NCBI GenBank assembly: GCA_016182795.1
Contig: JACPFW010000044.1
Location: 1-64,000, forward strand
Direction of reading: 5' to 3'
Length of the DNA stretch: 64,000 nucleotides
Source of the DNA: Gemmatimonadota bacterium
Lineage (GTDB): Bacteria; Gemmatimonadota; Gemmatimonadetes; Gemmatimonadales; Gemmatimonadaceae
Made by a program: the position numbers and the translations under genes
Notes under the pieces: generated by a model
What the model saw: only the letters and a program-made list of their open reading frames with translations
Told to the model about the DNA's origin: nothing
Database searches by the model: none
Shown: in pieces, positions 52,224 to 63,835 of the stretch
Layout: every line of letters starts with the position of its first letter
Position numbering within the stretch: position 1 is the stretch's first letter

Positions 52224-53714
52224 TTAGGCTTTGCTCTCCGGCGCGGGCACGCTCTCGGGCCGCGCCGCGGCCGCCGACTCGTCGCCGCGCACCGGCAGCG
52301 ACACCGTGAAGGTCGAGCCGCGCCCCAGCCGCGACGCCACGGTGATCGATCCGCCATGCGCATGCGCGATGTACTGGCTGATCGCGAGCCCGAGCCCCAC
52401 GCCCGCGCGGTCCGACGAGCGCGAGCGCGCGCGGTCGGCGCGCCAGAAGCGGTCGAACACATACGGCAGGTCGGCCCCCGCAATGCCGACGCCGGTGTCG
52501 CGCACCGCGAACTCGACCATCTCGCCGCGTCGCTCGAGTGACAGATCCACGCGCCCCCCGCGCGACGTGTACTTCACGGCGTTCGTCACGAGGTTCAGGA
52601 AGAGTTGGCGCAGGCTGCGCGCATCGCCCATCACCGTCGCGGCCGTCAGCGGACCGACGGTCACTTTCTGCCCCGCTTCCTCGCCGAGGATCTGAGCGGT
52701 CTCGGCGACATCCAGCACCAGCGGCGCCATCTCCACCGGCTCGCGGTGCAGGTCAAACCGTCCCTCGTCGGCGCGCGCCAGCGTCAGCAGCGATTCCACG
52801 AGATCGGCCATCCGCGTCGTTTCCTGCAGCGCCTCCTCGAGCGCCACCAACCCTTCCGTCGAGCGCGGCCCGGCCGACATCGCGCGTTCGATGTCGGCAC
52901 GCAGCACCGTCAGCGGCGTCTTGAGCTCGTGGCTCGCGTCGGCGGTGAAGCGGCGCAGTCCGGAGAACGACTGCTCGAGCCGCGCGATCATCGCATTGAG
53001 CGTCGCCGACAGGCGCGCGAGCTCGTCGTCGCCGGCGGCCTGCGGCAGGCGCCGGTGCAGCGACCGGCCGTCGGTGATGGCCGACACGTCGCCGATGATC
53101 TCGTCCACCGGCCGCAGGGCGCGCCCCGCGATCGTGTACGCGAGGATCACCGACACGAGCACGATGAGCGGCGCGATCAGCACGAACACGCCAAACTGCT
53201 CACTGCCAAAGAACTCGGCCGACGCCACCGAGCTGGCGGCCACTACCCGCCGCACCGGTCCGGCCTCGCCGGTCTCGAAGCGCGCGACCATCAGCAGCTT
53301 ATCGCTCGACAACGTCACCGTCGCCGCGGAGGTGTCTGGCGTGAGCAGCATCGCGGCGCTCATGAGCGCCGCGATGTCGTCGGGGTTGAGCGCGCGCACC
53401 GCCGCCGACAGGTAGAGCGCCCGCAGGGAGTCGGTGACGACGAGGTACTCGGGGACGGCGTCGAGCCGGGCGCGCAGTCCGCGCTGCAACTCGGGGCCGC
53501 GCAGGGAGTCGTTGGTCACCACCACCGGCGTGTTCTGCATGCCCGCCTGCGTGAGCACGAGGTGGCCGATGTCGGCGAGCGTCGAGACCCGCACCTGCAG
53601 GTCGCGCAGCACCGAGGCGCGGCGCGCGGTCCACAGCGCGACCGAGAAGACGAGCATCGTCCCGCCCAGCGCCAGCGCGTACGCCGTGGTGACTCGGGAG
53701 CGGATCGACGCCAC
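52224..53714 (-). CDS. Sensor histidine kinase (EnvZ/QseC type)
   Basis: The 496-residue protein has two spans (VTTAYALALGGTMLVFSVAL near the start and FVLIAPLIVLVSVILAYTIA at about 180) around a periplasmic sensor, a HAMP region (GRALRPVDEIIGDVSAITDG), the H-box FTADASHELKTPLTVLRADI, and ATP-binding N, G1 and G2 boxes (NLVTNAVKYTSRGG, VRDTGVGIAG, GVGLGLAIS). It probably phosphorylates the OmpR-type regulator 6 nt upstream. Confidence 0.93.
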   Translation of the reverse strand: MASIRSRVTTAYALALGGTMLVFSVALWTARRASVLRDLQVRVSTLADIGHLVLTQAGMQNTPVVVTNDSLRGPELQRGLRARLDAVPEYLVVTDSLRALYLSAAVRALNPDDIAALMSAAMLLTPDTSAATVTLSSDKLLMVARFETGEAGPVRRVVAASSVASAEFFGSEQFGVFVLIAPLIVLVSVILAYTIAGRALRPVDEIIGDVSAITDGRSLHRRLPQAAGDDELARLSATLNAMIARLEQSFSGLRRFTADASHELKTPLTVLRADIERAMSAGPRSTEGLVALEEALQETTRMADLVESLLTLARADEGRFDLHREPVEMAPLVLDVAETAQILGEEAGQKVTVGPLTAATVMGDARSLRQLFLNLVTNAVKYTSRGGRVDLSLERRGEMVEFAVRDTGVGIAGADLPYVFDRFWRADRARSRSSDRAGVGLGLAISQYIAHAHGGSITVASRLGRGSTFTVSLPVRGDESAAAARPESVPAPESKA

Positions 53715-53720
53715 GGGTCG

Positions 53721-54389
53721 CTATCCCTTCACCACGTACCCGACGCCGCGTACGGTGGTGATGAGCTTCTTCTCCTCGGGAGCGTCCACCTTCTTGCGCA
53801 GGTGGTTGATCACCACATCGACGATGTTGGTCCCGGGATCGAAATGGTACCCCCACGCGTACTCGGTGATGAGCGTGCGGCTCATCACCCGCCCGGCGTG
53901 GCGCATGAGGTACTCGAGCACGAGAAACTCCTTGGGCGTAAGCTCCACGAGCCGGCCGCCGCGGCGCACCTCACGGGTGTCGAGATCGAGGCTCAAGTCG
54001 CCCACGGTGAGGACCGGCGTCGCGATCGCGCGCGGCCGGCGCGCCAGCGCCTCGACCCGCGCCAACAGCTCCTCGAACGCGAACGGCTTGGTGACGTAGT
54101 CGTCGGCGCCGGCACGGAGCGTCGTCACCTTGGCGTCCACCGCGTCCTGCGCCGTCAGCACGAGCACCGGACGCTCAAATCCCCACGCCCGCAGGTCGCG
54201 CAGCACGTCGAGCCCCTGCTTGCCGGGCAGTCGCATGTCGAGCACCACCACATCGTACGGCTGCGAGCGCGCCAGCCGCTCGCCCTCGATGCCGTCGGCG
54301 ACGAGGTCCACGCTCCAGCGCTGCTGCTCGAGCCCTCGCTTGACGAACTGCCCGACCGTCTTGTCGTCCTCGATGACCAGGACTTTCAT
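53721..54389 (-). CDS. OmpR/PhoB-family response regulator
   Basis: The 222-residue protein has a receiver domain with D51 (VVVLDMRLPGKQGLD), VLTAQDAVDAKVTTLRAGAD and DDYVTKPF, then a winged-helix DNA-binding domain ending IVDVVINHLRKKVDAPEEKK, LITTVRGVGYVVKG. Its ATG overlaps the Fis-like gene stop (ATGA). It is between the two kinase genes and could take phosphate from either. Confidence 0.95.
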   Translation of the reverse strand: MKVLVIEDDKTVGQFVKRGLEQQRWSVDLVADGIEGERLARSQPYDVVVLDMRLPGKQGLDVLRDLRAWGFERPVLVLTAQDAVDAKVTTLRAGADDYVTKPFAFEELLARVEALARRPRAIATPVLTVGDLSLDLDTREVRRGGRLVELTPKEFLVLEYLMRHAGRVMSRTLITEYAWGYHFDPGTNIVDVVINHLRKKVDAPEEKKLITTVRGVGYVVKG

Positions 54390-54640
54390 GGCGTCTGCTC
54401 CCCGGCGCCGCGTGCGGCCGGGCCCCCGGCACGCCCGCCGGGGCGCTGCAGACCGTACGATCGAATCTTGCGGTACAGCGTCTTGACGGAAATGCCGAGC
54501 GCGCCGGCGGCGCGCCCCTGATGCCAGCCGGAGCGTTCGAGCACAGCCGCGATGTGCCGCCGTTCGAGTTCGGCGAGCGTCAGCGGCGCGCCGGGAGCGG
54601 CGGCCACGCCGGTCGGGGTGTGCGATGCGGCAGCTACCAT
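54386..54640 (-). CDS. Stand-alone Fis-type helix-turn-helix (HTH_8) protein, 84 residues
   Basis: The 84-residue protein is only a disordered N-terminus (MVAAASHTPTGVAAAPGAP) and the C-terminal helix-turn-helix of NtrC-type regulators: LTLAELERRHIAAVLERSGW, then HQGRAAGALGISVKTLYRKI. There is no receiver and no AAA+ domain. It overlaps both neighbours by 4 and 7 nt. It may bind DNA as a Fis-like dimer. Its DNA target is not known, but the sigma-54-type hsp20 promoter diverges from this operon. Confidence 0.85.
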   Translation of the reverse strand: MVAAASHTPTGVAAAPGAPLTLAELERRHIAAVLERSGWHQGRAAGALGISVKTLYRKIRSYGLQRPGGRAGGPAARGAGEQTP

Positions 54641-56193
54641 TCGACCGTCGGCAGCAGCACGCGGAAGGTGCTCCCCTTGCCCACCACGCTGTCCACCTCG
54701 ATGCGGCCGCGGTGGTCCTGCACGATGCCGTAGCAGATGGCGAGCCCGAGACCAGTCCCCGTCCCCGGCGCCTTCGTGGTATAGAACGGCTCGAAGATCT
54801 TCGACAGCTCGGCGCGCGCGATGCCGTGTCCGGTGTCGGTGACCTCAACGATCGCGCCATCGGTCGGCGTCGGACCGGTGCGCGTGCGCAGCGTGATGGT
54901 GCCGTGGCCGCCGGTTGCATCGGTGGCGTTGATGATCAGCGCCATCAGCACCTGCACCAGCTGCTCGGCATTGCCGCGGGGCACGACCGGCAGGTTGGGC
55001 TCGAGTTCCTTGACGAGGTTCATCTTCTTGAAGCCGCCGTGATGCTTCATCAGGAAGAGCATCTTCTCGACGACTTCGTTGAGGTCGACCGGCGACTTGG
55101 CGAGCTGCTTAGGCCGGCTGAAGTCGAGCAGCTGGTCGACAATCTGCTTGCAGCGCAGGACCTCGTTCTCGACGATCTCGATATAGTCGAACAGATCCTT
55201 GCCGATTTCCACGCCCTTGCGCTGGAGATCCTCCAGCCGGTAGCCGAGGCCGTCGCCGCAGGCGGCGATGGTGGCCAGCGGGTTGTTGATCTCGTGCATC
55301 ACGCCGGCGGCCAGCGTCCCGATGGCCGCCAGCTTCTCGGCCTGCGCGTAGCGCTGCTGTCCCTCGCGCCAGTCGGTCACGTCTTCGCCGATGGTGATGA
55401 CGTGCGTCACCGCCGAGTCGCCAAGTCGCATCGGCACCTTGGTGATGCGGTAGGTGCGCTGATCGCCGCTCGCCGTCGACTCCATCTGGTATTCCTGGAT
55501 GCGGCCAGTGGCGAAGACCTCGTCGAACTCGCGGCGCAGCATCTCAAACGGCTGGCGATGCAACACGTCGAAGATGGTGCGCCCCAGCGCCTCATCGCGC
55601 GCGATGCCCTGCATGCCGGTCTCGCGCTTGCGATTCCACGCCTGAATGCGATACTGCCTGTCGATGACGTACAGCCCGACGGGCATCGAGTCGATGATCT
55701 TCTCGGTGAACCGCCGCTCGCGATCGATCTCCGCGGTGCGCGCCGCCACCTCCACCTCGAGCTGACGCGAGCGTTCGGCGTGCGCGAGCTCCGGGGCCAG
55801 CAGGTTGGCGACGGCATGCAGGAGCGTCGTATCCTCGGCCAGCAGGGGCCGGTCAACGCGGACCACGAGCGCGCCCACGTGGCGATTGGCGCCGAGCACG
55901 CGCACCGTGCACAGGTCGCTGGCCGCGCCATCGGCGGCGAGCGCGGCCTGCACCGCGCTCTCCGAGGCGAGCGCCTCGCCCGCGGCCCACGTGCGCACCA
56001 GTCCGTCGGCGGCGTGCAGCCACAGGGAGCACTCGTGGGCATCCAGCGACCGCCGCACGGCCTCCAGCGCCAGCGCGATGCTCGTTTCCAACGGCCGATC
56101 GGCGTTGAACTCGGCGATCACGGCCGCCAGGGCGTCCAGGGCGCGCGGGGCCGAGGACGTGGGCGAAGGCTGGTCAGTCACAATGGGATCCAT
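54634..56193 (-). CDS. PAS/GAF sensor histidine kinase, NtrB-like
   Basis: The 519-residue cytosolic protein has a GAF-like region (about 20-140: LDALAAVIAEFNADRPLETS), a PAS domain (about 165-275: IIDSMPVGLYVIDRQYRIQA), the H-box GTLAAGVMHEINNPLATIAA with H300, and an HATPase ending (VLMALIINATDATGGHG, VTDTGHGIA, GTGTGLGLAICYGI). This is an NtrB-type kinase, usually paired with an NtrC-type activator. None is next to it, only an HTH-only protein. The ATG is at 56193; a longer frame exists, but the promoter suggests this start. Confidence 0.9.
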   Translation of the reverse strand: MDPIVTDQPSPTSSAPRALDALAAVIAEFNADRPLETSIALALEAVRRSLDAHECSLWLHAADGLVRTWAAGEALASESAVQAALAADGAASDLCTVRVLGANRHVGALVVRVDRPLLAEDTTLLHAVANLLAPELAHAERSRQLEVEVAARTAEIDRERRFTEKIIDSMPVGLYVIDRQYRIQAWNRKRETGMQGIARDEALGRTIFDVLHRQPFEMLRREFDEVFATGRIQEYQMESTASGDQRTYRITKVPMRLGDSAVTHVITIGEDVTDWREGQQRYAQAEKLAAIGTLAAGVMHEINNPLATIAACGDGLGYRLEDLQRKGVEIGKDLFDYIEIVENEVLRCKQIVDQLLDFSRPKQLAKSPVDLNEVVEKMLFLMKHHGGFKKMNLVKELEPNLPVVPRGNAEQLVQVLMALIINATDATGGHGTITLRTRTGPTPTDGAIVEVTDTGHGIARAELSKIFEPFYTTKAPGTGTGLGLAICYGIVQDHRGRIEVDSVVGKGSTFRVLLPTVEW

Positions 56194-56206
56194 AGTCCGG
56201 ATCGCG

Positions 56207-56235
56207 AAGCTACGCCTCGGCGCCGAAGCAGACAA
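56207..56235 (-). promoter_or_regulatory. Predicted promoter of the kinase-Fis-regulator-kinase operon
   Basis: TTGTCT (56235-56230) and TAGCTT (56212-56207) are 17 nt apart on the minus strand. A start near 56200 leaves only about 7 nt before the ATG, so the mRNA may be nearly leaderless. No Shine-Dalgarno is visible. Confidence 0.5.
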
Positions 56236-56266
56236 GATGACCGATCCGCCCATCCGCCGCGCCGCG

Positions 56267-56321
56267 TGCCCCGCTGGCAGGCTGGCCGCTCAAGCTGACA
56301 GACACGCGTGCCGAGGTGGCA
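56267..56321 (+). promoter_or_regulatory. Two matching TGCC-N5-GGCA palindromes, likely enhancer (UAS) for hsp20
   Basis: TGCCCCGCTGGCA (56267-56279) and TGCCGAGGTGGCA (56309-56321) have the same arms and centre spacing of 42 nt, about four helical turns, so both lie on the same face. The second ends 9 nt before the -24 element of the sigma-54 promoter. This is the usual plan for binding sites of NtrC-type activators. Confidence 0.65.
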
Positions 56322-56330
56322 AATCCGGCT

Positions 56331-56346
56331 TGGCACGCTCGTTGCT
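56331..56346 (+). promoter_or_regulatory. Sigma-54 (-24/-12) promoter of hsp20
   Basis: TGGCACG-CTCG-TTGCT is a full match to the sigma-54 consensus (TGGCACG-N4-TTGCW) with correct spacing. Transcription would start near 56358, giving a leader of about 74 nt to the hsp20 ATG at 56432. No sigma-70-type promoter for hsp20 was recognised in the same region. Confidence 0.8.
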
Positions 56347-56431
56347 CGAATATGGGGACAGACGCGGCGCCCCATGCGCCGCCCATTGACCCTTCAACCC
56401 ATCACTAATGCGTTTGCTCATCGGAGGCCCT

Positions 56432-56878
56432 ATGGTCCGCACGACCCGGTTCACCGCTCCCATCTTTGGCCTGCGCCACGAGATCGACAAGCTGTTCGAA
56501 GACACCTTCGGCAACATGGGCACACCGGCGCTCGGCACCAGCGCCTGGCTCCCCGCGGTTGACGTCAAGGAGACGAACGACGCGCTGCTGTTCGACCTCG
56601 AGATGCCCGGCGTCGATGAAGACAAGCTCGAGATCACCTGCCAGAGCGGCGTGCTGATGGTCGCCGGCGAGAAGTCGAGCGCCCGCAAGGAAGGCGAGGA
56701 CGGCAAGTGGCACATCGTGGAGCGCAGCTTCGGCTCGTTCCGTCGGTCGTTCCAGCTCCCCGCCAACGTGCAGGACGACAAGATCGAAGCCACGCTCACG
56801 AACGGCGTCCTGCGGCTCCGCGTGCCCAAGATGGAGCAGCCCAAGCCGACGCGGATCGAGATCAGAGCGGCGAAGTAA
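56432..56878 (+). CDS. Small heat shock protein Hsp20 (alpha-crystallin family)
   Basis: The 148-residue protein has an N-terminal arm (MVRTTRFTAPIFGLRHEIDK), an alpha-crystallin domain from about 45 (WLPAVDVKETNDALLFDLEM, then GVLMVAGEKSSARKE, FGSFRRSFQLPANVQDDKIE), and the NGVLRLRVPK strand. A GGAGG Shine-Dalgarno 4 nt before the ATG at 56432 decides the start over an in-frame ATG at 56408. It is a holdase chaperone. Expression from a sigma-54 promoter means dependence on an NtrC-type activator. Confidence 0.95.
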   Translation: MVRTTRFTAPIFGLRHEIDKLFEDTFGNMGTPALGTSAWLPAVDVKETNDALLFDLEMPGVDEDKLEITCQSGVLMVAGEKSSARKEGEDGKWHIVERSFGSFRRSFQLPANVQDDKIEATLTNGVLRLRVPKMEQPKPTRIEIRAAK

Positions 56879-56958: not shown

Positions 56959-57780
56959 TTACTTGATTCCGCCGAACGCGAGTCCGCGCAGGAACGCTTT
57001 CTGGGCGACGAGGAAGACGACGAGCACCGGCACAAGCGCGGCAACAGCGGCGGCCATCTGCCACGGCCAGTTGGCGAAGTACATCCCGTGGAATGACGCG
57101 ACCCCGGCTTCGACCACGCGAAGGTCGGGGGAGCGCGCGATCACCAGCGGCCAGAGCAGCGCCTTCCACGCGTCGATGAACGCGAAGAGCGCCACGGTGG
57201 CGAGCGCTGGCCGCGCCAGCGGAACAGCGACGTGCCAGAAGACCTGCCACTCGCCGGCGCCGTCGAGCCGCGCGGCGTCTTCCATGTCGCGCGGCAGCGA
57301 CAGGAAGTACTGTCGCATGAGGAAGATGCCCCAGGCCGCCACCAGTTCCACGCTCACGAGGCCGGCGACGGTGTCGACGAGGCCCATGGCGTCGACCAGC
57401 AGGAAGCGCGGCACGAGCAGCGCAATGCCGGGAATCATCAGCGTGCCGAGATAGACGGCGAACAGCGGCGTGCGTCCGGCGAACCGATGGCGCGCGAAGG
57501 CGTAGCCCGCCATCGCCGCCGTCACCACCTGCCCGGTGACGGTCGCGGCGGCAAGAATGAGCGAGTTCCGGAAGTACAGGGCGAACGGCAGCGCAGTGAG
57601 CGCCTCCGTGAAGTTCGCGAACCGCGGCACGGTGGGGAGCAACGGCGGCGGCGCCTGATACACCTCGAACTCATCCATCAACGCCGTCGAGAGCATCCAC
57701 AGGAACGGCGCCACCATGACGAGCGCGAGGGTGAGCGCGGCGCCGTAGCCGAGGGCGCGCCGCAGGAGCCGGTCAGACAT
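56959..57780 (-). CDS. Sugar ABC transporter permease, MalG-like
   Basis: The 273-residue protein has six spans and the EAA motif of binding-protein-dependent permeases (EDAARLDGAGEWQVFWHVAV, then PLARPALATVALFAF). The N-terminus (LGYGAALTLALVMVAPFLWM) and C-terminus (VLVVFLVAQKAFLRGLAFGG) are typical of MalG/UgpE. It starts 8 nt inside the MalF-like gene. Last gene of the sugar importer operon. Confidence 0.93.
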   Translation of the reverse strand: MSDRLLRRALGYGAALTLALVMVAPFLWMLSTALMDEFEVYQAPPPLLPTVPRFANFTEALTALPFALYFRNSLILAAATVTGQVVTAAMAGYAFARHRFAGRTPLFAVYLGTLMIPGIALLVPRFLLVDAMGLVDTVAGLVSVELVAAWGIFLMRQYFLSLPRDMEDAARLDGAGEWQVFWHVAVPLARPALATVALFAFIDAWKALLWPLVIARSPDLRVVEAGVASFHGMYFANWPWQMAAAVAALVPVLVVFLVAQKAFLRGLAFGGIK

Positions 57781-59305
57781 CGGCGGCCTCCCCCTTGACG
57801 GTGCGCCACTGCAGCGCCGTCAACGCGAGCAGCACCGCGCAGAGCACGACGCTCATGGCCGCGGCCACGTCGAAGCGGCGGAACTCCCACGCCGTCTGGA
57901 AGATCCGGTAGACGAGCACGTCGGTGGCGTGCGCCGGGCCGCCCTCGGTCATCACGTACACGAGCGTGAAGCCGTGAAACGACCAGATGATCCCCGTGAG
58001 CAGGAGATACGTGGACACCGGGCGCAGCAGCGGCCACCGAATAAGTCGAAACCGCTGCCATGCGCTGGCGCCGTCGAGCCGCGCCGCCTCGAGCAGCGAC
58101 GTGGGAATGGCCTGCAGTCCCGCGAGATAGATCACCATCATGTAACCGAGCTGACTCCACGCGCTCACGAGCATGAGCGCGGGGAGCGCGGTCGCCGGAC
58201 TGCCCAGCCAGTCCACGCGCGGCAGATGCATGGCGGCCAACGCCACATTGAGCAGGCCGAAATCGCGGTGGAGCAACCACTGCCAGACGAGCGCGATGGC
58301 CACCGTGGACGCCACGAACGGCAGGAAGACGACGACGCGGAGCAGCTTGATGCCCCGCAGCGGCTGATCGAGCACGACGGCGGCAGCGAGCGCCGCGATC
58401 ATCGTCGCCGGCACGTAGAGCGCGTACACGAGGCCATTGCGCAGCGCCCGCCAGAACAGCGGGTCGGCGCCGATCTCGCGGAAGTGCGCGAGGCCGACGA
58501 AGGGGCGGTCGGTGGCGAGCAGATCCCAGTCGTGCACGGAGATCCAGAAGAGGAACCCGACCGGCGCGATGGTGAAGACCACGAGATGCAGCAGGCTGGG
58601 CGCGATGAACGCCCACGCGCCCAACGTCTCCTGCACGCGCGCCGGACGACCGGCGGCCGCGGCGTGCCAGTGCACCGCCGACAGCGCGAGCGCCCCGCCG
58701 ACGGCGAGGCAAACGAGCAGCAGGGTCGCGAACGCCAGCGAGGGCGGCGGCAGGGCCAGCCGTGAGAGCGACGCGGGTAGTTCGGCGTGCGACGCGAGCG
58801 CCGGCACCGACGCCCGCAACTGAACGGCCGTCGCGGCCGCCGCCGCGCCGAAGAGCGCCAGGCCGCCAACCGCCGCCGCTCGAGGGCTCGCGTCGCGCAC
58901 CGGGCGGACGCCGGCGAACATTCCCACGCCAAGGAGGAGAGCCGCCACCGCCGGCCACGCCGTGGCAAACGCGCGCTCGCGCCACCGGCCGTACAGCCCG
59001 ACCGCGCCGATGATGTCCCAGTCGTCCGCGTCCTTCACCGCGGCGGTCACGATCTCGGAGCCATCGGGGTCATCGACGACCAGCGGCCGTTCCTCCTTAT
59101 GCAACGCGGCCAGCTCGCTGACGTCGAGATCGCGCGGGAACGCCGGCGTCGGTACGCGCCCCCGCAAGGCGTGGGCGCGCGCCAGCGCGTCGCGGCTCCG
59201 CGCGCCGTAGTCGATCCCCCGCAGCGTGTGCCACGCGACGCCGATGCTCGCCACCGTCCACACGATGATCGCGAGCATCACCACGCGAGTTTCTGCGCGC
59301 GTCAT
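57773..59305 (-). CDS. Sugar ABC transporter permease, MalF-like, with a long N-terminal extension
   Basis: The 510-residue protein has the usual permease from about residue 235 (LGAWAFIAPSLLHLVVFTIA, then the EAA loop EAARLDGASAWQRFRLIRWP). The first 230 residues are extra: a span near the start (MLAIIVWTVASIGVAWHTL), a polar domain (about 30-105, PTPAFPRDLDVSELAALHKE) and three further spans. Canonical MalF-like permeases are near 300 residues, so this is a fusion. GTG/ATG overlaps join it to its neighbours. Confidence 0.88.
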   Translation of the reverse strand: MTRAETRVVMLAIIVWTVASIGVAWHTLRGIDYGARSRDALARAHALRGRVPTPAFPRDLDVSELAALHKEERPLVVDDPDGSEIVTAAVKDADDWDIIGAVGLYGRWRERAFATAWPAVAALLLGVGMFAGVRPVRDASPRAAAVGGLALFGAAAAATAVQLRASVPALASHAELPASLSRLALPPPSLAFATLLLVCLAVGGALALSAVHWHAAAAGRPARVQETLGAWAFIAPSLLHLVVFTIAPVGFLFWISVHDWDLLATDRPFVGLAHFREIGADPLFWRALRNGLVYALYVPATMIAALAAAVVLDQPLRGIKLLRVVVFLPFVASTVAIALVWQWLLHRDFGLLNVALAAMHLPRVDWLGSPATALPALMLVSAWSQLGYMMVIYLAGLQAIPTSLLEAARLDGASAWQRFRLIRWPLLRPVSTYLLLTGIIWSFHGFTLVYVMTEGGPAHATDVLVYRIFQTAWEFRRFDVAAAMSVVLCAVLLALTALQWRTVKGEAADV

Positions 59306-60579
59306 CGGGCGAGGGCGCGATCCACGACGACTGACGCGTCGCGCACGGCCCGTTGCACAGGCACGCGATCAACGACGATGCGATCAATCAGATCCAGCAT
59401 GGCCGCTTCGATTTCGCGATACGGCGCCACCCGCGCCCCCCACGGCACGCCGCCGTACGGCACCTGCCACAGGAAATCCATCTCCATCCCGGTCGTATCC
59501 TTGCTGGCCGATTCGTACGCCACCGTCATCAGCGTCGGAATTTCCAGCCCGGAGGCGGCGCGCCGACGCTGGGCATCGGCGCGCACCATCCACGCCGCGA
59601 GTTCCACGGCAAGCTTGCGGTGCGGCGTGTTGTACGGCACGGCCCAGCCACTCGCGAACAGCGGCGTCCTCACCTGGTGCCCCTCGGTGCGCGGCACCGA
59701 CACCACGCCCAACTGCACGCGCCCTTCCTCGAGATAGCGCCGGATCCGCGGGATCATCCAGTGGCCGCTCGTCAGCAGCGCCAGCTTTCCGCTGTAGAAG
59801 AGCCGCTGCTCGAAGCCGAGCGCCCCGCCGGTGGTGCTCGGCGGCGGCGCATAGCCGAGCCGAGGGAGATCGGTGAGCAGGGTCAGGGTGCGCTCGACCT
59901 CCGGCTGGTCGAGCGCGCCGGAAGCGCGTCGGCCGTCCGGCGTGAGGATGTCCGCCCCCGCGCCCCAGATCCACGCCTGCCAGGCATAGAGCCGCCGATC
60001 GAGCACCGTCCCCCACTGGTCCACCACGCCGTCGCCATTGCTGTCGCGCGTCAGCGCGCGCACCGTCGCGAGAAACTCCTCCTGCGTCCAGCCCTGCTTG
60101 GGCGGCGCCACGCCGGCCTTCGCGAACAGCGCGCGATTGTAGTAGTAGACCATCGGCGTGAATCCCTTGGGAAACGCCACCAGCTTGTCGCCCGCCCGGA
60201 ACGGCTCGAGTACCTGCGGGAAGAACAGCCCCACCTGCACGCCAACGCGCTCGGCGAAGGGCTGCAGGTCGAGCACGACGTTGCGCTGCGCGAAGGCGGC
60301 CACGTCGATGCCGTCCAACAGGAACACGTCGGGCGGCGACCCGGCGCCGATGGACGTGAGCACGATTTCGCGGTACTCGCTGCTGTTGGAGACCGGGTCA
60401 TTGACGATGCGCACCCCGGGATGCTCGGCCTCGAACGCGCGATACTCCACGGCGTCGATGGCGTTTTCCTCGGGACTCTGCCACGAGGTGATGCGCAGCG
60501 TCACGCCCTCGTCGCGGCGGCAGGCCGACAGGCCAATTGCCAGCGCCGCCGCGAGAGTCACCACGCCACGGGGCGTCAT
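59302..60579 (-). CDS. Extracellular sugar-binding lipoprotein of an ABC importer
   Basis: The 425-residue protein has a lipoprotein signal ([20 protein letters not shown]20 in LSAC) and a family 1 solute-binding fold: VTLRITSWQSPEENAIDAVE, PDVFLLDGIDVAAFAQRN, KGFTPMVYYYNRALFAKAGV. D179-SNGDG-V-V-D187 is an EF-hand-like Ca2+ loop. It catches the sugar for the permeases. Its ATG overlaps the MalF gene (ATGA). Confidence 0.93.
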   Translation of the reverse strand: MTPRGVVTLAAALAIGLSACRRDEGVTLRITSWQSPEENAIDAVEYRAFEAEHPGVRIVNDPVSNSSEYREIVLTSIGAGSPPDVFLLDGIDVAAFAQRNVVLDLQPFAERVGVQVGLFFPQVLEPFRAGDKLVAFPKGFTPMVYYYNRALFAKAGVAPPKQGWTQEEFLATVRALTRDSNGDGVVDQWGTVLDRRLYAWQAWIWGAGADILTPDGRRASGALDQPEVERTLTLLTDLPRLGYAPPPSTTGGALGFEQRLFYSGKLALLTSGHWMIPRIRRYLEEGRVQLGVVSVPRTEGHQVRTPLFASGWAVPYNTPHRKLAVELAAWMVRADAQRRRAASGLEIPTLMTVAYESASKDTTGMEMDFLWQVPYGGVPWGARVAPYREIEAAMLDLIDRIVVDRVPVQRAVRDASVVVDRALAR

Positions 60580-61625
60580 GTGAGCCTCGTGCCGTCACCG
60601 GCGCGGAAGCAGTGCCCCTCCCCAGCGGCCACGCGCACGCCGACGTCATCTCCCATGCGGCACGTCGCCTCGCCCGCCACCCGCGCCACCACCACGTCGC
60701 CGCTGCGCAGCCGCAGTCGCACGAGCGACTCGGGGCCCAGCGGTTCGACCAGCAGCACCGTCGCCGGCGCGGCGTCGATGGCGGTCCCCAGCACCAGGTG
60801 CTCCGGGCGCACCGCGAGCACGACATCTCCGTGCGGCGCGGCCGTCGTTGTGCACGTAAGGGCTCCCTCGAAGCGCTCACCGGTTGTTCGCCCGACGAGC
60901 GTGTTGATCGAGGGCGACCCGATGAGCCGGGCGACCGCCAGCGTCTGGGGCTCGCGATACAACGCCATCGGCGGCGCCTCCTGCAGCACGCGACCCTGCG
61001 CCATCACCGCGACCGACTGCGCCATGGTCATCGCCTCCACCTGATCGTGCGTCACAAACAACATCGTCGCCCCCAGCCGCCGGTGGAGGGCCACGAGTTC
61101 GGCGCGCGTCTGCGCGCGCACCTGAGCATCGAGATTGGAGAGCGGTTCGTCAAACAGGAAGAGCGCCGGCTCGCGCACGATCGCGCGCGCCAGCGCGACC
61201 CGCTGCCGCTGGCCGCCCGAGAGTTGGGCGGGCTTGCGGTCAAGCAGCGCGCCAATCTCAAGCAGTTCCGCCGCGTGCGCCACGCGCCGCGCGACCTCGG
61301 CGCCCTGCGTCTTCCGCACCTTCAACGGAAAGCCAATGTTCTCGCGCACCGTCAGGTGCGGATAGAGCGCGTAGTTCTGAAAGACCATCGCCACGTCGCG
61401 GGCGGCGGGCGGCAGGTGCGTGACCTCGCGCCCGCCAATCACCACCGCGCCGCTCGTGGGCTCTTCGAGCCCCGCCACCATCCGCAGGATCGTCGTCTTG
61501 CCGCACCCCGACGGTCCGACGAGCGCGGTGAACGCCCCGTCCCCGACCGTCAGCGTGACGTCATCGACGCCGACCACGCCGCCGGCGAAGCGCTTGATGA
61601 GGTGCCGCAGTTCGAGCGCGGCCAC
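60576..61625 (-). CDS. Sugar ABC transporter ATP-binding protein (MalK/UgpC/MsmX-like)
   Basis: The 349-residue protein has Walker A ([20 protein letters not shown]), Q-loop ([16 protein letters not shown]), signature [15 protein letters not shown], Walker B ([17 protein letters not shown]), H-loop ([14 protein letters not shown]), and a C-terminal regulatory OB domain ([12 protein letters not shown]). GTG at 61625 is 2 nt after the glycosidase stop. It powers the importer and may serve other systems too. Confidence 0.94.
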
Positions 61626-61627
61626 GG

Positions 61628-63835
61628 TTAGTCCGACAGCTCCACCGCCTCGCCGAGCGCCGACTCCCACCGGTCGCCGCCCGAGATCACGGTAAACTTG
61701 TCGCCCACAATGCGCACCTCGAGCGTGCGGCCGCGCACGCGCACCCCCGTCAGCGTGAGCTGCTCGAGCCCCAGCGGAAACGGATCGATCGTGACCCCGT
61801 GATCATGCGGCCGAACGCCGGCGGCGTACTGCAGAATGAGGTCGGCGACCCACGAATGCTGGTAGTCGTCGATGCCGCGGTAGACCGACGCGTGCCCGGT
61901 AAACGGGTTGTAGTGCTCAAAGCAGTTTGGACGCCGCAGGTCGCCGTCGTGGAACATCATTCGCACAAAGCGTTTGATCAGCTCGCCAGCCTGCTCGCGC
62001 AGGCTGTGGGCGCCGAGCCGCGAGGCGGCGGCCAACGCCTCCACCAGATGGCTGTTGGTCATCGGCCAGGTGCGTCCGTTCCACGGGCAGACGTGGCGTT
62101 TCCCCTTCCACTCGGCTTCGGCGCTGAACAGCGGGTCGTCGAGCGCCGACGACGGCACCGGAAACGGCGTCCAGAACTGCTGCGCGTCGAGCAGCGTCTG
62201 CCGCAGGCCGCGCACGTGCGATTCGTCGACGATGTCCGTGAAGTACGGGTAGAAGCAGACCGCCGCCTTCACCCCGGTGCGCTGGCCGGTGGCGGGGTTC
62301 ACGTCGGAGAACATCTCGCGCGCCGGATCCCACATCTCGTCGCGCACGGCGTCGCGGGTCCGCGTCGCCAGCGACTTCCAGCGGGCCGCGTCACCGCCGC
62401 CGCGCGCCGCGTACTTCTCGAGCGTGCGGAACAGCACGTACGCGTACACGGTGACGTCAATGCCCTTGAGCCGCAGGCGATTCTCCCAGCCGTATCGGTC
62501 GGCTTCAGGATCGACCGCCTGATAGCGGCTCATGTACTCCTGCCCCGTCTCGTACTGATCGACGACGTCGAACATCCCGCTGCCAGTGGCGTCGCGCGTG
62601 CGCACGAGCCACTCGGCGAACCGCGCCATCGCCGGATACAGCTCGGCGAGAAAGGCGTCGTCGGGCCACGCCGCATCGAGCGCCATCAGCGCGCCGCCCC
62701 AGTCGGCGTGGTAGTAATCGGTGCCGGTCAGGTGATTGGCGTAGAGGCGGCCGTGGAGCGACCCGTCATCTTTCTGGTGGCCGAAAAAGGTGCGGAGCAC
62801 GCCGCGGGCGTGATCGGGCGTGTCGAGCCAGCGCAGTTCGCGCGCGTGGCACTGCGCCGAGTACGAGATCGGCTGGTGGAAGAAGCCGATCCCCTCGCAC
62901 ATCGACGGCCATCGGTGATGACCGTGCCCGCCGTCGGTGGCGTTCAGGTGCAACCCGTACCAGCGATACCAATAGTAGGTCTCGATATACGGGTCGGAGC
63001 AGCGCAGCTGCGGCACGCGCTCAAACCAGGCGTGCCACCGTCGGCGGCTCGCGCCGGCGATGGTGCCGTGCGACGGGCGCGCGCTGCGCGCCGGCGCGCT
63101 CACGGGCAACGCCGGGTCGTCGGCGCGCACCTTCATCGCGAACGCGGCGGATGCGCCCTGATACCCAACGTCGATGGCGCGATGCACCGCGGCGTAGAAG
63201 AGACCGTCGGGCGAGATCCCTTCGTCGCGCACGGTGCGCGGCAGGCCGCCCGCTCGCCACTGCTCCACGAACGGTGTGTGGCGCCACAACGGCTGGGGCG
63301 CGCTGCGCTCGCTGCGCGAGGCAGCCCAGCTCGCCACGTCGCCCACGCACGCGAGTTCGGCGCGCACGCGCAGCGGCTGCTGCCGGCGGTCGGTGAGTGT
63401 GCGCGCGAAACTCAGCGCCCCGTCCTTCCACGCTGCCTCACCCAGCGGCACCGCGGCGCCGTCCTGCGCCGTCCACGCCACCAAGTGCACCCGCGCCGGC
63501 TCGAAGGCGGCAAACCGCCACTCCGACACAAACACACCCCCGGGATGCACGGTGCGCACTTCGGTGGCCGTCAGCCCGCCGTCGAGGCGATACGTGACGG
63601 TGAGGTCGGCCGGCGTCCACCGGCGCGACACGGCGCGCATCGCGATCTCCCGCCCGCCGACGTCGAGCGCCGTGACGGTAAAGAGCGGGGCGAACGCGTA
63701 CTGGTACACGGTGGCCTCGTCCCAGAAGCCCGGCGTGTCGAGCCACGCCGGGTAGGTGGGAGCGAACAGGGTGCCGTCCCCGGCGCCGAGGTACCACTTG
63801 TCGTCGCGCGCGAGGTGTTCGATGGGATCGAGCAT
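61628..63835 (-). CDS. MGH1-like / GH63-type (alpha/alpha)6-barrel glycoside hydrolase
   Basis: The 735-residue protein has a beta-rich N-terminal half and a six-hairpin catalytic domain: ETYYWYRWYGLHLNATDGGH, YHADWGGALMALDAAWPDD, MFDVVDQYETGQEYMSRYQA, and CPWNGRTWPMTNSHLVEALA. These resemble MGH1/GH63 glucosidase-type enzymes. No signal peptide is seen (MLDPIEHLARDDKWYLGAGD), so it acts in the cytosol on imported oligosaccharide. It leads the ABC importer operon. Exact linkage is unknown. Confidence 0.83.
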   Translation of the reverse strand: MLDPIEHLARDDKWYLGAGDGTLFAPTYPAWLDTPGFWDEATVYQYAFAPLFTVTALDVGGREIAMRAVSRRWTPADLTVTYRLDGGLTATEVRTVHPGGVFVSEWRFAAFEPARVHLVAWTAQDGAAVPLGEAAWKDGALSFARTLTDRRQQPLRVRAELACVGDVASWAASRSERSAPQPLWRHTPFVEQWRAGGLPRTVRDEGISPDGLFYAAVHRAIDVGYQGASAAFAMKVRADDPALPVSAPARSARPSHGTIAGASRRRWHAWFERVPQLRCSDPYIETYYWYRWYGLHLNATDGGHGHHRWPSMCEGIGFFHQPISYSAQCHARELRWLDTPDHARGVLRTFFGHQKDDGSLHGRLYANHLTGTDYYHADWGGALMALDAAWPDDAFLAELYPAMARFAEWLVRTRDATGSGMFDVVDQYETGQEYMSRYQAVDPEADRYGWENRLRLKGIDVTVYAYVLFRTLEKYAARGGGDAARWKSLATRTRDAVRDEMWDPAREMFSDVNPATGQRTGVKAAVCFYPYFTDIVDESHVRGLRQTLLDAQQFWTPFPVPSSALDDPLFSAEAEWKGKRHVCPWNGRTWPMTNSHLVEALAAASRLGAHSLREQAGELIKRFVRMMFHDGDLRRPNCFEHYNPFTGHASVYRGIDDYQHSWVADLILQYAAGVRPHDHGVTIDPFPLGLEQLTLTGVRVRGRTLEVRIVGDKFTVISGGDRWESALGEAVELSD

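Follow-up and report, generated by a model that had tools for sequence, protein, structure and literature searches.

Sigma-54 is usually associated with nitrogen, motility and envelope functions. Chaperone genes have been placed under it in several lineages: in Flavobacterium psychrophilum, sigma-54 promoters (motif SM4) with mapped 5′ ends lie at groES/EL, dnaK, grpE/dnaJ, htpG, lon and clpB (PMC9723704); in the Planctomycetota and Bacteroidota, GroEL, IbpA-type Hsp20, GroES, GrpE, DnaJ and DnaK are enriched among predicted sigma-54 genes (PMC12316311); and a sigma-54 promoter serves ibpB of E. coli, within an operon that sigma-32 controls (cited in PMC4316790). On the side of the regulators, the kinase and NtrC-like regulator of the HsfBA system of Myxococcus xanthus directly control the heat-shock gene lonD (PMC9109919), and NtrC-type proteins that lack the GAFTGA motif (NtrC of Caulobacter and of R. 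capsulatus, and VspR) have been reported at sigma-70 promoters (PMC10274813).

The locus described here lies in a 64,000-nucleotide stretch of a Gemmatimonadota genome, referred to below as the window. Like F. psychrophilum, the window genome has sigma-54-type promoter words at chaperone genes, clpB and groES among them; hsp20 and activator sites are not among the features given in the accessible parts of that paper (PMC9723704), and the window genome differs in having three sites phased by 21 bp and a decayed activator gene. The predicted cluster of the Planctomycetota and Bacteroidota contains chaperones including Hsp20, as here; its accessible text describes no activator sites, and its main text nowhere uses the word "Gemmatimonad" (PMC12316311). 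E. coli ibpB resembles the hsp20 gene studied here in being a small heat-shock gene whose promoter is of the sigma-54 type; the accessible part of the citing paper mentions no such sites (PMC4316790). Given ibpB and F. psychrophilum, the assertion in the earlier note on this DNA that an Hsp20 gene under an NtrC-type activator is uncommon appears overstated, as far as the accessible parts of these sources go. As to the regulators, HsfBA includes an NtrC-like protein (PMC9109919), whereas the protein encoded beside our hsp20 lacks both REC and AAA+ domains. The NtrC proteins of Caulobacter and R. capsulatus and VspR have, in the accessible account, lost the sigma-54-contacting loop and kept DNA binding (PMC10274813); the series reported below goes further, in that REC and AAA+ are gone and only ~72-84 aa are left. 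A search of titles found no paper on a sigma-54 chaperone set in the Gemmatimonadota, the subscription literature being mostly outside its reach.

Table 1. Coordinates in the window of the hsp20 promoter region and the divergent kinase operon.
Feature	Position	Strand	Remarks
Second histidine kinase, HAMP-HisKA-HATPase; next gene in same direction	52224..53714	-	Pfam
OmpR-type response regulator; next gene in same direction	53721..54401	-	Pfam
HTH-only Fis-type protein, 84 aa	54386..54640	-	PF02954, 1.2e-14
PAS-HisKA-HATPase histidine kinase	54634..56253	-	Pfam; true start probably near 56193
Conserved element of divergent kinase promoter, GACAAGATGACCGA	56231..56244		Only exact copy in genome
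Upstream palindrome 1, TGCC-N5-GGCA, TGCCCCGCTGGCA	56267..56279		Starts 64 nt 5′ of sigma-54 word
Upstream palindrome 2 (weak left half), GCTC-N5-GACA, GCTCAAGCTGACA	56288..56300		Starts 43 nt 5′ of sigma-54 word
Upstream palindrome 3, TGCC-N5-GGCA, TGCCGAGGTGGCA	56309..56321		Starts 22 nt 5′ of sigma-54 word
hsp20 sigma-54 (-24/-12) promoter word, TGGCACG-CTCG-TTGCT, TGGCACGCTCGTTGCT	56331..56346	+	GG-N10-GC in 7/7 readable genus promoters
Inverted repeat GCGGCGC-N5-GCGCCGC, predicted hsp20 5′ leader	56364..56382	+
hsp20, 148 aa	56432..56878	+	PF00011, 8.3e-24; GGAGG before start codon

The sigma-54 word and the two identical-arm palindromes that the earlier note had picked out upstream of hsp20 are both present where it placed them (Table 1), and between the palindromes lies a third, weaker site that it had missed. 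Palindromes 1 and 3 are 42 nt apart and the middle site sits at the exact 21-bp phase between them, so that the pair becomes a triplet phased by 21 bp. The NtrC operator is TGCACC-N5-GGTGCA; the hsp20 sites do not fit it, in agreement with the earlier note that the enhancer word is of another kind. The hsp20 transcript is predicted to start near 56357, which would give a leader of ~75 nt up to the start codon at 56432; this start is preferred, the alternative ORF start at 56408 being less likely. In the inverted repeat of the predicted leader, 12 of the 14 stem columns are invariant among seven genus members and the loop is variable. We considered an RNA thermometer in this leader and found no case for one, the folding z-score being only -0.98. 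Beyond hsp20, at 56959-63835, come the genes of an ABC sugar transporter and that of a large protein (61628-63835) on the minus strand; all are named by sight from their translations.

The explanation that we favor, and consider quite probable as a whole, is a sigma-54 chaperone regulon activated in trans, combined with an HTH remnant that acts on its own operon. It builds on what is observed directly, namely the sequences, their geometry and conservation, the domain loss and the co-occurrence of genes and sites. According to this model, sigma-54 RNA polymerase would transcribe hsp20, and an enhancer-binding protein encoded elsewhere would activate it from phased TG(C/T)C-N5-G(G/A)CA sites just upstream; the same protein would serve clpB, groESL and perhaps dnaK, with HrcA and CIRCE added on groESL. 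The divergent operon would once have coded for a full NtrC-type regulator, which shrank to a Fis-type DNA-binding domain in most of the genus. The earlier note had taken the locus for a sigma-54 promoter with paired palindromes upstream of it, tied to a local kinase-to-hsp20 circuit; the analysis bears out a promoter of the sigma-54 type with phased sites and lends no support to the circuit.

Judged singly, the elements of the hsp20 promoter are not exceptional. TGGCACNNNNNTTGCW, with at most one mismatch, matched once in the window, against 1.64 matches expected. Genome-wide, TGGCAC-N5-TTGC with at most one mismatch gave 79 + 92 matches, four of them exact, versus 144 + 131 in the reversed control, and the spaced palindrome pair with at most three mismatches occurred at 34 places versus 149 for the reversed control, the hsp20 place being the only exact one among the matches listed for the window genome. 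Neither the promoter word alone nor the palindrome pair alone stands out genome-wide, but the combination does. We scanned for it in ~158 kb of the window genome, a chosen rather than random sample that included the clpB stretch, counting as sigma-54-like any word with at least 8 of 11 positions and allowing a palindrome at most one mismatch. This sample held 251 sigma-54-like words, three of which had a palindrome at -22; only hsp20 and clpB had at least two palindromes at -22/-43/-64.

The arrangement is conserved. The hsp20 gene is divergent from the kinase gene in 7 of the 11 genomes of the window's genus, and all seven retain the sigma-54 word, with GG-N10-GC constant and the spacer variable. 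Palindrome 1 is found at the same offset in each of them (six exact, one with one mismatch), the middle site reads G-N-TC-N5-GACA throughout, and palindrome 3 is likewise present in all seven (five exact, two with one mismatch). The conservation of the palindromes in relatives, which the earlier note had proposed as a check, thus extends together with the promoter word to six other genus genomes and, more loosely, across the family. There, a sigma-54-like word (at least 8 of 11) was found at 47 of 51 hsp20-divergent loci, the chance level being roughly one in four at the rate of such words in the ~158-kb sample. Family-wide, palindromes upstream of hsp20 (at most one mismatch) peaked at offsets 22, 43 and 64, in five, five and four genera, respectively, versus at most two genera at any offset in 50 shuffled controls; a second register was seen at offsets 54 and 74, in three and four genera. 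In the set of loci placed on the kinase tree, phased sites plus a sigma-54 word occurred at 27 of 47 hsp20-divergent loci and at none of 59 loci without hsp20. The other 20 of the 47 failed this test, which weighs against the model. When the link between hsp20 and the sites was counted as independent events, 10 pairs were available, of which a mean of 4.1 agreed and none opposed (median p 0.125). Two further loci (L097 and L109) have hsp20 and the sites and fall outside the test because the kinase tree kept 109 of 118 loci.

The same promoter and sites recur at a further chaperone gene. In the window genome, clpB shares the geometry of hsp20, TGCCGCGGCGGCA lying at -64 and TGCCGGAACGGCG at -22 relative to TGGCATCACCATTGC. 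This geometry is kept in six of nine genus members (five of eight besides the window genome), mostly with one mismatch per palindrome, and it occurs in other genera too; the sites are missing in the remaining three genus members (L211-L213), which weighs against the model. A sigma-54-like word was present at 25 of 29 placeable clpB loci (30 fetched), from nine genera, and the -22 palindrome accompanied it in four of these nine genera, versus at most two in 50 shuffles.

CIRCE, the element of the HrcA regulon, has the form TTAGCACTC-N9-GAGTGCTAA. For groES, we sampled 15 stretches from eight other genomes, found the gene in five of the eight, and read a set made up of five genus members, the window genome included, and one member of genus g23 (L295, L378, L381, L383, L386 and L391). 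Upstream of groES, all six genomes have CIRCE with one or two mismatches (one in the window genome), and all six have a sigma-54-like word at -105 to -109 that scores 8 to 10 of 11, with two or three palindrome-like sites, the nearest lying 75-85 nt 5′ of the word. The evidence is weaker in the window genome than in its relatives: its word is the lowest of the six (8/11) and its sites have one mismatch each, which weighs against the model. This arrangement suggests that groES is under double control, by CIRCE and by a sigma-54-like promoter with sites further upstream. At dnaK of the window genome (L296, contig 9), a 9-of-11 sigma-54 word is preceded, 22 nt upstream, by one palindrome with one mismatch, which is suggestive of a possible further regulon member in this genome only; CIRCE was not found there, the best match having seven mismatches. 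Since clpB shares the geometry and groES has similar sites and a similar word, hsp20 is probably one of a small group of chaperone genes under sigma-54.

We then turn to the genes divergent from hsp20. The earlier note had assigned to the kinase a PAS/GAF sensor; PAS is present, with HisKA and HATPase, but no GAF domain was detected (Pfam, E 0.001). The HTH-only protein encoded next to it is, on the evidence of alignment, a remnant of an NtrC-type response regulator: it aligns to the C terminus of full-length REC-AAA+-HTH regulators encoded at the same locus in many relatives, and of four solved chains that match it weakly, three are named as NtrC-family or sigma-54-dependent. Of the features of an enhancer-binding protein it has the Fis-type HTH (HTH_8) and lacks the AAA+ domain with GAFTGA. 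Purifying selection acts on its HTH core (median dN/dS 0.09; 28 pairs, 43 residues). Opening of the sigma-54 complex requires an AAA+ domain, and by this established mechanism the HTH-only protein cannot perform it. With the motor part of the adjacent regulator gone and its DNA-binding tip kept, the activator of hsp20 is probably made elsewhere.

The decay of this regulator can be followed across the family. We used 118 of 130 kinase loci, leaving out 11 of genus g22 and one of g30; 121 fetched loci were reduced to 118 by removal of L049 and L052, which have no kinase, and L056, in which the kinase is paralogous. Among the 109 loci of the kinase tree, the neighboring regulator has GAFTGA at 6, GAF[A/P/S/V]GA at 31 and neither at 37, this last class being defined by the lack of a GAF[T/A/P/S/V]GA match and including genes cut by contig ends; 12 loci are HTH-only, 20 are without the gene and 3 are unresolved. 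The HTH-only form is found in 8 of the 11 genomes of the window's genus; of the others, G146 lacks the gene, the G149 locus is cut by a contig end, and G150 (L100) has a full-length degenerate regulator with VLGIGLT in place of the receiver motif LLDIVMP. Genus g29, which stands apart in the kinase tree, has HTH-only forms too.

Retention of GAFTGA at six loci (L046, L050, L051, L054, L138 and L142), four of them divergent from hsp20, raises the question of whether an intact neighbor is the ancestral, local activator of hsp20, with control handed over to another protein in other genera. At L050 there are two perfect palindromes with a spacing of 52 nt, and this spacing recurs at L046 for two palindromes with one mismatch. 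None of the four hsp20-divergent GAFTGA loci passes the phased-site test, however; the sigma-54 words at these loci are weak or have no GG-N10-GC, and L138 and L142 have no hsp20 neighbor. We regard ancestral local control as unlikely, though worth keeping in view.

The HTH gene tracks a different element, GACAAGATGACCGA, located at the kinase promoter. With at most two mismatches, this element was found at 76 of the 81 loci that have the HTH gene and at none of the 20 that lack it, after removal of 5 loci whose upstream sequence was shorter than 400 nt and of 12 ambiguous loci (the motif being present at 8 and absent at 4); in shuffled windows it was found in 0 of 595. Five HTH loci (L107, L128, L132, L153 and L155) have no copy within two mismatches, which weighs against the model, and a single genus supplies 13 of the 20 loci that lack the gene. 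The element is lost in G146, which is without the HTH gene, and in L113, where the HTH is damaged. Counted as independent events, the link between gene and element gave five pairs, of which a mean of 3.8 agreed and none opposed (p 0.125). The GACAA of GACAAGATGACCGA is likely to be the -35 element (TTGTC) of the kinase promoter on the minus strand, with a TA..TT box ~17 bp further on. The HTH remnant thus likely regulates its own kinase operon, most likely by binding GACAAGATGACCGA over the -35 element, and would not activate hsp20. At one locus (L044, in G012), GACAAGATGACCGA upstream of the kinase is followed by repeated copies of TGACCGATCGAG.

The hsp20 sites behave otherwise. They are kept at 10 of 10 hsp20-divergent loci without the HTH gene (nine of genus g23 and one of g3) versus 15 of 33 with it. 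The local circuit that the earlier note had proposed, from a PAS/GAF sensor through the HTH-only protein to hsp20, is not supported, in view of this persistence, of the missing AAA+ domain, and of the association of the HTH gene with GACAAGATGACCGA at the kinase promoter instead; we also set aside the HTH-only protein as the binder of the hsp20 sites, given the association with GACAAGATGACCGA and the 10 loci. In a weaker version, the protein would be a passive remnant of an ancestral activator that still binds these sites and, by competing or bending, tunes a separate activator. Fis-type HTH domains bind palindromes like the hsp20 sites, the gene is divergent from hsp20 and under the purifying selection noted above, and the sites are retained in all seven readable genus members with hsp20. 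Yet the two independent pairs in the comparison of loci with and without the gene both go against a link, HTH-only and full-length forms are present at loci that have neither hsp20 nor such sites, and it is GACAAGATGACCGA, not the hsp20 palindromes, that the gene follows. We consider such binding distinctly unlikely.

Activation in trans at a sigma-54 promoter also depends on the rest of the genome. The rpoN gene, whose presence the earlier note had asked to be checked, was found in the window genome, in 95 of 99 family genomes and in 73 of 73 good ones. Five proteins of the window genome combine GAFTGA or GSFTGA with an HTH and are candidate hsp20 activators encoded elsewhere; by their neighborhoods, the one on contig 46 belongs to a flagellar cluster, the one on contig 30 lies behind a membrane kinase, the one on contig 13 is near an NtrY-like kinase, and those on contigs 42 and 7 are orphans. 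We set aside the contig 42 orphan, a pseudo-receiver activator not found in three of the 11 genus genomes, where genome gaps are possible; two genomes without it keep the sites (G081 at hsp20 and clpB, G062 with two groES sites). Self-control sites of the activator genes were likewise set aside: the one palindrome seen, at -84 of the contig 13 activator in three of four copies, apparently lies inside the preceding gene.

Two observations concern the NtrC-type proteins themselves. Compared with its G040 relative (L408), the contig 7 activator (L202:3294-4595) is shorter by ~21 residues in the segment from Walker B to sensor I, which could be either a real deletion or an assembly fault. Another NtrC-like response regulator of the genus, 450 aa long and without GAFTGA, was read at L393, L395 and L402, with matches of the same frame length at the other loci from L393 to L402; it is absent among the PF00158 matches listed for the window genome.

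An enhancer as near as ~-41, the position of the proximal hsp20 site, is unusually close, which weighs against the model. The same feature fits a reading in which the palindromes are repressor operators, the -24/-12 word is a relic and hsp20 uses another promoter; decay or loss of the adjoining NtrC-type gene at most loci fits it as well. Against it stand the conservation of GG-N10-GC despite a variable spacer, the fixed offset between site and promoter at two unlinked genes, and the retention of both rpoN and GAFTGA activators. Repression from these sites therefore strikes us as very unlikely, and activation in trans remains the preferred reading.

For the family as a whole, there is about an even chance that hsp20, clpB and groESL are controlled through sigma-54 and one enhancer word, and that the linked NtrC-type regulator repeatedly lost first its sigma-54 loop and then its ATPase and receiver, leaving a stand-alone DNA-binding domain whose own target site persists. 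A further group with a chaperone regulon of this kind and a defined enhancer word would broaden the case for sigma-54 at heat-shock genes in some lineages. Moreover, the states of the neighbor gene form a graded series, from GAFTGA through GAFxGA, degenerate AAA+ and HTH-only to absence, which allows the loss of activator function to be compared with the fate of the target sites. If this reading is true, the series would be a step-by-step natural record of the passage from an activator to a simple regulator.
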